Shown piece after piece: positions 13,784 through 15,564 of a stretch of 29,998 nt of DNA. The translations under genes and the position numbers were made by a program. The notes under the pieces are model-generated. The model was not told the origin of the DNA and did no database searches. It saw only the letters and a program-made list of their open reading frames with translations. How positions within the stretch are numbered: position 1 is the stretch's first letter; each line of letters starts with the position of its first letter. The DNA is from an uncultured Oscillospiraceae bacterium (GTDB lineage Bacteria; Bacillota; Clostridia; Oscillospirales; Oscillospiraceae), in NCBI GenBank assembly GCA_934636305.1, contig CAKUAM010000016.1, positions 1 through 29,998 of the forward strand, given 5' to 3'.

Positions 13784-14005
13784 CTATTGCTTCGTATCAC
13801 TTCGCCCGACCAAATAATCCAGCGTTACATGATAATAATCCGCCAGCTTGATTGCCAATTCTAATGGCAACGGTCGTTCCCCACGTTCATATTTCGAATA
13901 TAGCGACTGGTCACAAAGTAAATAGTCAGCAATTGTCTGCTGTTTGAGATCATGATCTTCTCGCAAATCGCGGATTCTGAGTTTCAATTTCATCACCGCA
14001 GACAT
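13784..14005 (-). CDS. XRE-family transcriptional regulator
   Basis: A 73-aa stand-alone Cro/CI-type helix-turn-helix protein. The HTH is LKQQTIADYLLCDQSLYSKYERGERPLP, ending in the usual LIVG-type tail LADYYHVTLDYLVGRSD. There is no extra sensing domain. Start at 14005 is preferred weakly (GAG 5 bases upstream); ATG at 13993 is an alternative. It is divergent from a 53-aa gene, and two copies of the palindrome AGGACN5GTCCT lie between them, so it very probably represses that gene and perhaps itself. Confidence 0.88.
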   Translation of the reverse strand: MSAVMKLKLRIRDLREDHDLKQQTIADYLLCDQSLYSKYERGERPLPLELAIKLADYYHVTLDYLVGRSDTKQ

Positions 14006-14013
14006 GATATCTC

Positions 14014-14028
14014 AGGACAGGTTGTCCT
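14014..14028. promoter_or_regulatory. Operator O1 of the XRE switch
   Basis: AGGACA and TGTCCT flank a 3-base centre, a perfect inverted repeat. It lies nine bases before the XRE start codon and just upstream of the -35 of the divergent promoter. Confidence 0.7.
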
Positions 14029-14029
14029 C

Positions 14030-14058
14030 TTGACATATAGGACTTTTTGTCCTAAAAT
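14030..14058 (+). promoter_or_regulatory. Promoter of the 53-aa gene
   Basis: A perfect TTGACA (14030-14035) and TAAAAT (14053-14058) are separated by 17 bases. Operator O2 fills the spacer, so a bound repressor would block RNA polymerase. Confidence 0.85.
14039..14053. promoter_or_regulatory. Operator O2 of the XRE switch
   Basis: AGGAC (14039-14043) and GTCCT (14049-14053) flank five T bases. The right half (TGTCCT) equals that of O1. The two sites are centred 25 bases apart, about 2.4 helical turns. Confidence 0.68.
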
Positions 14059-14077
14059 TGGAATTGAGGTGATGAAA

Positions 14078-14239
14078 ATGCAGGATTATAAAGAAATGTA
14101 TCTCAAGCTGATGCGTGCAACTGAAGATGCCATCCGCATTCTGATCGACGCACAGCGCAGCTGTGAGGAAATCTATTTATCCTCCGACAAAGGCACTGTC
14201 GTGCCACATCCGGTACAATCCCACAATGCAGAAAAATAA
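14078..14239 (+). CDS. Small protein, 53 aa, controlled by the XRE repressor
   Basis: The frame encodes MQDYKEMYLKLMRATEDAIR then a charged, probably helical stretch and a flexible tail. The ATG at 14078 has GAGG 8 bases upstream; the ATG at 14072 is too close to it. Small proteins of this KEMYLxLMRAxExAI shape are familiar beside XRE regulators in Clostridia, sometimes in mobile DNA, but I know of no function. A strong promoter and terminator frame the gene, so it is a real transcription unit. Confidence 0.75.
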   Translation: MQDYKEMYLKLMRATEDAIRILIDAQRSCEEIYLSSDKGTVVPHPVQSHNAEK

Positions 14240-14269
14240 GCGGGACGCTCTGCGTCCCGCTTTGTTTGT
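14239..14269. terminator. Bidirectional terminator between the 53-aa gene and murA
   Basis: Perfect 10-bp arms (14239-14248 and 14252-14261) enclose a 3-nt loop. On the plus strand TTGTTTGTT follows. On the minus strand TATTTTTC follows, serving murA. Confidence 0.88.
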
Positions 14270-15564
14270 TATCCTGCATCCTCCGTTACCGGAGCAGTAT
14301 CAAATGTCTCGATGCGGCGGATTCTTGCGCCAAGCGCCGTCAGCTTGCCAACAATGTCCTCATAGCCGCGCTCAATGTAGTGTGCATCCTCAATCAGCGT
14401 GGTTCCCTCGGCGCACATCGCGGCAATCACCATCGCCGCACCCGCGCGGAGATCACACGCCCGCACCTCGCAGCCATGCAGCCGCTGCACGCCGTCGATA
14501 ATTGCGGTCTTGCCCTCGACCTGAATGTTTGCACCCATGCGGCCAAGCTCCGCTGTGTACCGGAACCGGTTATCATAAATTCCTTCTGTAACCAGACTCG
14601 TGCCGACCGCTGTTGCCAGACAGACCGAAATTTGCGGCTGCATGTCCGTCGGGAAGCCGGGGTAGGGCATGGTTTTGACGTTGGCCCGATGCAGACGGTA
14701 AGCCGACTCCACACGGATGGCATCATCATATTCGGTAATATCCGCGCCAATCTCACGGAGCTTTGCCGTGATGCAGTCCAGATGCTTCGGAATCACATTC
14801 TCAATCAGCACATCACCGCCGACAGCCGCAGCCGCAGCCATGTACGTACCGGCCTCAATCTGGTCAGGGATGATGGAATAGCTGCCGCCATGCAGCGCCG
14901 GAACACCGCGAACCTTGATGACATCCGTGCCGGCGCCGGAAATCTGCGCGCCCATGGCATTGAGGAAGTTTGCAAGGTCAACAATATGCGGCTCCTTGGC
15001 GCAATTCTCAATGATTGTCATACCGCTGCAGAGCACCGCAGCAAGCAGAATATTCATCGTCGCACCGACGGAGACAATATCCAGATAAATATGTCCGCCG
15101 CGCAGGCCGCCCTTCGGTGCGTCCGCGCAGACATAGCCGCCGGCCTGCTCAACCATGGCGCCCATTGCCTCAAAGCCCTTGATATGCTGGTCAATGGGGC
15201 GGACGCCAAAATTGCACCCGCCCGGCATGGCAACATGTGCATGACCGAAGCGGCCAAGCTCCGCGCCGATCAGATAGTACGACGCGCGGATGCGGCGCAC
15301 AAGCTCAATCGGAGCCGTTGCATTGCGGGCATGGGAACAGTCAATTTCCAAGGTGTTGCGGCCATAGCGGTGAATTTCTGCACCCATGTCGCGCAGAATC
15401 TCCAGCAGCAGGCGCACATCCGAAATATCCGGAACATTTTCAATGCGGCAGGGGCCGCTGACCAGCAGCGTGGCCGGAAGAATGGCGACCGCAGCATTCT
15501 TCGCCCCGGAAATGGTGACCGAGCCGGAGAGCTTTGTTCCGCCCTGAACGATATATTGAATCAA
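14269..15564 (-). CDS. murA: UDP-N-acetylglucosamine 1-carboxyvinyltransferase
   Basis: A 431-aa enzyme of the first committed step of peptidoglycan synthesis: phosphoenolpyruvate plus UDP-GlcNAc to enolpyruvyl-UDP-GlcNAc. K22 in SGAKNAAVAI and the catalytic cysteine C117 in MPGGCNFGVRPID are present, so fosfomycin sensitivity is expected. The start is the TTG at 15564, with GAGGG 8 bases upstream; it places the family N-terminus (IQYIVQGGTKLSGSV) correctly and no ATG is available nearby. The codons upstream of it in frame are leader sequence. It has its own promoter and is separated from yycI by about 270 bases. Confidence 0.93.
   Translation of the reverse strand: MIQYIVQGGTKLSGSVTISGAKNAAVAILPATLLVSGPCRIENVPDISDVRLLLEILRDMGAEIHRYGRNTLEIDCSHARNATAPIELVRRIRASYYLIGAELGRFGHAHVAMPGGCNFGVRPIDQHIKGFEAMGAMVEQAGGYVCADAPKGGLRGGHIYLDIVSVGATMNILLAAVLCSGMTIIENCAKEPHIVDLANFLNAMGAQISGAGTDVIKVRGVPALHGGSYSIIPDQIEAGTYMAAAAAVGGDVLIENVIPKHLDCITAKLREIGADITEYDDAIRVESAYRLHRANVKTMPYPGFPTDMQPQISVCLATAVGTSLVTEGIYDNRFRYTAELGRMGANIQVEGKTAIIDGVQRLHGCEVRACDLRAGAAMVIAAMCAEGTTLIEDAHYIERGYEDIVGKLTALGARIRRIETFDTAPVTEDAG

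Follow-up and report, generated by a model that had tools for sequence, protein, structure and literature searches.

A divergent XRE repressor gene and 53-aa protein gene with twin palindromic operators, a probable member of a family of Clostridia cassettes of fixed geometry

Within a window of 29,998 nucleotides from an uncultured Oscillospiraceae bacterium (the whole stretch of DNA that we analysed), two small genes diverge, one encoding an XRE repressor and the other a 53-aa protein, and two palindromes lie between them (Table 1). An initial annotation, made from the sequence by itself, had described a divergent regulator and 53-aa ORF, two AGGACN5GTCCT operators 25 bases apart and a near-consensus promoter with an operator-filled spacer, and each of these was located as described. 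Both operators match AGGACN5GTCCT exactly (25 bp start to start, with a gap of 10 bp); operator 2 sits within the N17 spacer between TTGACA and TAAAAT, its last base being the first base of the -10, and operator 1 sits within the spacer region of the candidate minus-strand xre promoter. These are the only two exact AGGACN5GTCCT sites in the window, whereas the mean in 100 dinucleotide shuffles was 0.02 (0/100 reached two); with up to two mismatches allowed the window has nine matches vs. 7.24 expected, and because this is near expectation only the exact operator pair is informative. The positions of operators 1 and 2 recur in homologues at about -43 and -68 from the xre start, respectively, and in the alignment TATTGA or TATTGAC is common at the small-gene -35. 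An Rfam search of the window, and of three loci from a genome in which the small gene is repeated (G778, described below), gave no match at gathering scores.

Table 1. Coordinates of the features of the divergent pair, as positions in the window.
Feature	Position	Strand	Basis
xre repressor gene, 67 aa from TTG 13987	13784..13987	-	HTH_3 match; start aligned with homologues
GGTGAT, candidate xre ribosome-binding site	13992..13997	-	present in most aligned homologues
TATCAT, candidate xre -10	14004..14009	-	homologue alignment and inference
Operator 1, AGGACAGGTTGTCCT, over xre promoter	14014..14028	.	exact match; homologue position
TTGACA, small-gene -35, between operators	14030..14035	+	sequence; homologue alignment
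Operator 2, AGGACTTTTTGTCCT, in -35/-10 spacer	14039..14053	.	exact match; homologue position
TAAAAT, small-gene -10	14053..14058	+	sequence; homologue alignment
GAGG ribosome-binding site, small gene	14066..14069	+	sequence
53-aa cargo gene (MxDYKxMY...AQ..CEE.Y family)	14078..14239	+	homologues; predicted single helix 4-35
G+C-rich hairpin and T-rich run, likely terminator after small gene	14240..14270	.	read from sequence; inference

The regulator consists essentially of one HTH_3 domain (Pfam HTH_3, 48.6 bits vs. a cutoff of 23), and its profile matches the ICEBs1 regulator (PDB 7t8i, E 1.5e-9) and C.AhdI (E 3.7e-4). It had been read as a 73-aa protein (48.2 bits in that form); however, the ATG required for this length (14005-14003, minus strand) overlaps the candidate -10 of its own promoter, and the starts of the homologues align at the TTG downstream of the candidate ribosome-binding site, so that we take the regulator to be 67 aa long. 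In homologues the place of TATCAT is occupied by TATAGT- or TATACT-like sequences, and the -35 of the candidate xre promoter is poor.

The small protein remains, as originally noted, without a known function: it has no match in Pfam, NCBIfam, PHROG or PADLOC, and a PDB profile search returned weak matches (best, inner centromere protein, E 0.013), which we take to reflect coiled-coil composition. A single-sequence search recovered one cluster (98% identical), an alignment search recovered 944 proteins at E ≤ 0.001 from 1094 candidates, and the relatives that bear a name among the 120 matches listed are all labelled hypothetical. Members of the family occur in 23/147, 11/291 and 32/150 genomes of samples drawn from the order, the class and the family, respectively, which overlap in part. 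AlphaFold predicts one helix at residues 4-35 (pLDDT about 98 at 11-30) and a poorly predicted tail. The conserved ends are separated by 25 residues in 53 sequences, by 32 in 19 (15 from G778) and by 37 and 39 in one each; of 121 retrieved proteins, 118 have 25 residues there and three have 24. The exact seven-residue step in length suggests that the family may form a coiled coil.

To place the regulator among its relatives, we confirmed 313 of them in public genomes with the regulator protein as the sole query and kept the best 80. In this protein-chosen set, an exact GGACN5GTCC lies no more than 130 bp upstream in 46/51 XREs with the motif CDQS-YSKYE vs. 0/28 XREs without the full motif (the counts exclude L054, a CDQS-YSKYE member without upstream DNA, and one of the 28, L036, does carry CDQS). 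The five CDQS-class loci without an exact site are L008, L012, L032, L048 and L051; at L032 one recognition residue is changed and AGGGC stands in place of AGGAC, and at several CDQS-class loci the alignment has operator 2 alone intact. Over 63 distinct CDQS-class upstream regions, a set gathered partly with the operator pattern, the site is present in 59, nearly always at -67 to -73 and/or -42 to -46. A scan by operator pattern, with no protein involved, found one site each in 8/295 and 5/391 genomes (one site-bearing genome being common to both sets) and two sites in none, and a reversed-pattern control gave two and three matches, respectively; 11 of the 12 distinct sites adjoin a CDQS-class XRE, and the twelfth (L121) lies inside an unrelated ORF. 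The pair and its operators are therefore conserved, on which the initial annotation had in part staked its proposal of a small XRE-controlled divergent module, and that proposal is supported, within a sample of mostly uncultured genomes from one class. The surroundings vary: four genes that neighbour the pair in the window were tested at the 80 XRE loci, many of them short, and any of the four was present at L035 (rny) and L039 (murA) alone. In Vescimonas fastidiosa, a named isolate, the pair lies between prmA and a parB-like gene and its XRE is of IDQS class; this pair, on a record described as a plasmid, is also the one match among plasmid records.

The spacing of the operators extends beyond the GGAC class. 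Where the small gene lies beside an XRE of another class there is no GGAC site, and often a different palindrome replaces it (e.g. GAACN5GTTC or AACCTN5AGGTT). Ten of 15 such loci carry twin palindromes, spaced by 25 bp, that no shuffle out of 100 equalled (the remaining five, L133 with p 0.05, L134, L140, L174 and L191, do not), and among 27 more distant XRE loci seven have one at p ≤ 0.01. Upstream DNA was available for 191 distinct small XREs; at a spacing of 25 bp, 72 of them scored at least 18 of 20, vs. 0 to 4 XREs at each of 19 other spacings from 17 to 36 bp. Chance may accordingly account for between one and a few of these 72, most likely GGATA. The layout is not universal, since 119/191 XREs fall under the threshold. 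AGGAC accounts for 32 of the 72 cassettes; eight of the 72 XREs come from operator-pattern loci, and seven of these eight are AGGAC.

The half-site of the twin palindrome changes with the recognition helix, which we write as x1x2x3-Q-x5x6-Y-S-x9-Y-E (Table 2). We measured this covariation in 41 XREs, comprising all 40 outside CDQSL and one CDQSL. Pairs with equal x5, x6 and x9 (48 pairs) differ on average at 0.29 of the five half-site bases vs. 3.18 for other pairs, a contrast equalled in 0/5000 permutations. The contrast persists at equal protein identity (MAFFT): at 0.6-0.7 identity, same-motif pairs average 0.08 mismatches (13 pairs) and different-motif pairs 3.4 (47 pairs), and at 0.7-0.8 identity the values are 0.07 (15 pairs) and 2.56 (9 pairs), so that relatedness alone does not suffice to explain the match of helix and half-site. 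At 0.8 identity or above, the different-motif pairs number three and average 1.33; five same-motif pairs above 0.9 identity average 1.6, a value that results from the out-of-register scoring of one CSQVCYS[HYN]YE member. The first base of the half-site is A in 70/71 cases that have the Gln, in keeping with the Gln-adenine contact of the 434 repressor. Passages of PMC3317979 and PMC4653904 make no mention of that contact, and the 933W repressor paper reports that position 1 of the operator is of little importance for that repressor.

Table 2. Recognition-helix motifs and the half-sites found with them.
Helix motif	Half-site	Number
CDQSLYSKYE	AGGAC	32
CDQSQYSKYE	AGGGC	
PQRTYAYYE	AGAAC	7
SQTGYSKYE	AACCT	5
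QTTYSKYE	AGTCG	3
CSQVCYS[HYN]YE	ATAAC or AAAAC; TAACA once, scored one base out of register	
QNTY	ATCTC/ATCTG	4
QTTYSDYE	AAGGG/AACGG	3
QTTYSRYE	ATGCG/ATGCA	3
QSTYSDYE	ATCGG	
QQTYSDYE	ACCGG	
QRVYSNYE and QRIYSNYE	AGCGG and AGCGA	
QRKYSYIE	AGATA	2
QQGYNHIE	ACTCA	2

We asked how well this code predicts the half-sites of 19 held-out XREs, which score 16-17 and have a motif already tabulated, and the outcome was mixed: the half-site was predicted exactly in 12/19 and to within one mismatch in 14/19, with 2/5 exact outside CDQS/CDRS. Evidence that cassettes are insulated from one another within genomes is likewise mixed: each of the four cassettes in G676 has a half-site of its own (one cassette scoring 17), whereas G702 has two near-identical cassettes of one class (L234 and L261).

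The cargo, too, is exchanged. By a simple ORF rule, the cargo belongs to the small family in 22 of the 72 twin-operator cassettes and is a different ORF in 38, with no cargo found in the other 12. The rule is crude, missing known small genes at L001 and L005 and leaving some of the 38 doubtful. The small family is the commonest single cargo family that we noticed. Among the recurrent other cargoes, which were grouped by eye, a Cys-rich small protein (CG.C..FR.HY.K...GHC..P...CP.W; L066, L070, L027, L035 and L122) accompanies XREs of at least three operator classes, and a cargo ending in RHDFG (L044 and L252) is found under more than one operator class; eight cargo sequences that were scanned (three of them cut at 100 residues) gave none above the Pfam cutoff. 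Conversely, at 73 distinct small-gene loci a divergent regulator lies within 350 bp in 30, namely an XRE in 24 and an Arc-like protein in eight, with both in two; the 43 loci without one are an upper bound, as two profiles were used and fragments and contig ends are included. All eight small-gene loci that have GGAC sites are beside an XRE of CDQS or CDRS class. Both the regulator, with its matching site, and the cargo are exchanged, and the layout stays fixed.

Several of these loci have features of their own. At L130, L155, L159, L172, L176, L185 and L196 the small gene diverges from Arc-like ribbon-helix-helix proteins (SIRIDEE.LNKLH.VADYEGRSANSQIL), and several Arc-like loci have in common an AT-rich intergenic sequence unlike the XRE palindromes. 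An array at L130:475-2260 comprises XREs, an Arc-like protein, a small gene, another XRE class and a further small gene. By eye, a small-family gene at L139:117-2399 lies between genes like those for V-type ATPase subunits B and D. In two genomes (L137 and L149) a subtype with MDYQ.AY... directly follows a membrane-protein-like gene, similar in both and read in the same direction, with neither a divergent XRE nor an Arc-like regulator.

In one genome the small gene has multiplied. In G778 (L201-L219, e.g. L203:2527-3116) it lies inside a repeat of about 0.6-0.7 kb with 19 protein matches and 30 DNA matches; many contigs end at the repeat, and the flanking sequence varies from copy to copy. Among 24 further genomes from the genus, the repeat has no match in 20 and a single short, weak one in each of the other four. 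The 17 cores compared, each of 42 codons, are all different and open (mean dN 0.062, dS 0.344, ratio 0.18), which argues that the small protein is being kept; it is a strange case, a gene that has reached 19 copies in a single genome while under purifying selection.

Taken together, we consider it very probable that the pair in the window is a negatively autoregulated switch, one of a set of fixed-geometry Clostridia cassettes whose half-sites vary in step with the recognition helix and whose cargo can be swapped. The 67-aa XRE would bind, as a dimer, both AGGACN5GTCCT palindromes, and the covariation of helix and half-site lends such binding indirect support; on operator 2 the dimer would block RNA polymerase at the promoter of the 53-aa gene, and on operator 1 it would block its own, weaker promoter. 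With the promoters head to head and the -35 regions between the operators, such binding would make a negatively autoregulated switch with a self-adjusted set point, in which the small helical cargo, probably a coiled coil, may be kept low except when repressor is short. We lean, by a little, towards a broader reading, that these are a natural set of insulated cassettes: at least 12 distinct repressor/operator pairs built on a common chassis (back-to-back promoters enclosing 15-bp palindromes at a spacing of 25 bp), with specificity set mainly by the three helix residues after the invariant Gln, different repressors and cargoes plugged in, and the commonest noticed cargo able to spread as a repeat. 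Two observations weaken this broader reading: G702 has two cassettes of one class, and the prediction of held-out half-sites had mixed success.

We weighed four alternatives. By analogy with the controller proteins that time the genes of restriction-modification (R-M) systems, the cassette could spread horizontally and, in a newly entered cell, express its cargo only until the repressor builds up, which we regard as rather unlikely. The cargo promoter is near-consensus and the repressor promoter poorer, the operator is the same as that of M.SsoII, and the neighbourhood is not conserved at the 80 XRE loci, all of which fit such a role; however, mobility genes were not seen adjoining the pair, and resident copies with intact promoters suggest use after entry.

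It is doubtful that the 53-aa protein is a dedicated antirepressor or co-repressor of the XRE that would, like SinI with SinR, relieve repression and give a bistable switch. The two genes are adjacent and divergent, a predicted single helix suits partner binding, a divergent XRE or Arc-like gene is present at the 30 small-gene loci counted above, and an HTH gene of another type is found at two or more further loci (L127 and L302), yet the partners of the small family include XREs of several classes as well as Arc-like ribbon-helix-helix proteins, whose fold is unrelated, one XRE class precedes unrelated cargoes, and some small genes (e.g. L128 and L154) have no visible divergent regulator, the total of such genes being the upper bound noted above. 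Regulators and cargoes are exchanged independently, and this disfavours both an antirepressor and a toxin, slightly less so because the count of regulator-free small genes is an upper bound.

A toxin-antitoxin module, in which the 53-aa protein would be the toxin and the XRE both antitoxin and repressor, is improbable: the small size and adjacency of the two genes and the twin operators would suit it, and XRE antitoxins exist, but the layout is divergent and not operonic, copies without a visible regulator occur (again as an upper-bound count), one genome has 19 copies, and the small protein has no match in Pfam, NCBIfam or PADLOC, a search that an undescribed toxin family would escape.

Very improbable is a remnant of an immunity switch from a phage or integrative element, for although the XRE sequence resembles the ICEBs1 regulator and phage repressors, a small-gene relative lies in a 37.9-kb viral contig (L301) with a different HTH gene beside it, phage records give one clear and one weak small-gene match, and 2/24 double-site viral contigs (L093 and L096) have an XRE of another kind adjoining the site pair, the ten sampled window proteins are all of cellular families (metabolism, RNase Y, seryl-tRNA synthetase, histidine kinase), the clear phage-record match (MT835649, an unverified scaffold; 51% identity, E 3e-9) lies among bacterial-looking genes (by eye, an Obg-like GTPase and others), and the ORFs listed for the 24 viral contigs include no small gene and no CDQS XRE. 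Those 24 stretches were the yield of the double-operator pattern, by which we had considered a phage origin and rejected it; a separate scan of viral contigs with three peptide patterns, which miss distant members, confirmed one relative among 24 stretches that matched those patterns. The XRE genes of another kind at L093 and L096 lie beside a GGACN5GTCC pair at 25 bp. The protein of L179 recurs in MT835649 (L302), where its gene diverges from an HTH-like gene of one more type that has a palindrome of its own, so that L301 and L302 have small-family genes divergent from two further HTH-like kinds with private palindromes. The phage-type and toxin-type switches that the initial annotation had likened the pair to are thus unsupported, and where it saw a layout reduced to two small genes the pair does not look like a two-gene remnant, being one of many cassettes on one plan.

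Read as an autoregulated cassette, an anonymous pair of tiny genes becomes a testable system, and a large uncharacterised micro-protein family gains a regulatory context. Small repressors with predictable operators would aid the reading of regulation in gut Clostridia, and the cassette family is perhaps a ready-made set of orthogonal repressors.

Among known systems, a lambdoid switch would have a Cro-like second repressor and phage genes, and here the small protein has no HTH match and the ten sampled proteins are cellular. In SinR-SinI an XRE repressor lies beside a tiny helical protein, SinI, which resembles the oligomerisation helices of SinR; in contrast, the window XRE has no oligomerisation domain and its cargo is exchangeable, the small protein being found with several XRE classes and Arc-like proteins and not with one dedicated repressor type. 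The ICEBs1 regulator (PDB 7t8i) and 434-type repressors have an HTH fold in common with the window XRE, but the latter has no effector domain and the window has no visible integrase or protease partner. C.AhdI-type C proteins are small stand-alone XREs that regulate their own gene, a likeness seen by profile, and unlike them the window has no R-M genes among its sampled neighbours. A search of the open-licence literature found no description of the 25-bp chassis with its helix-to-half-site relation or of the small-protein family; for the operator strings it matched work on M.SsoII alone. According to passages of that work, AGGACAAATTGTCCT is the experimentally defined regulatory site bound by the N-terminal, 434-repressor-like domain of M.SsoII, and M.Ecl18kI, its near twin, keeps RNA polymerase away and so represses its own gene, one of a divergent pair, whereas the N-terminal domain of M.Ecl18kI by itself formed a less stable complex and failed to control transcription in vitro (PMC3978073, PMC6100179, PMC3695355), so that an HTH alone may be weak. 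The window operator is the same AGGACN5GTCCT, as M.SsoII-type R-M control would have it, and no restriction or methyltransferase gene lies beside the pair, which is flanked by an rpiB-like gene and a gene of the EPSP synthase (MurA) family. M.SsoII and M.Ecl18kI thus resemble the window in having a palindrome of the same class between divergent genes, a likeness at the level of operator and fold, but they have an HTH fused to a methyltransferase and one site, where the window has two sites and no restriction gene. Autoregulation of a divergent gene by an XRE protein is well known, and the AGGACN5GTCCT palindrome already has a published reader.
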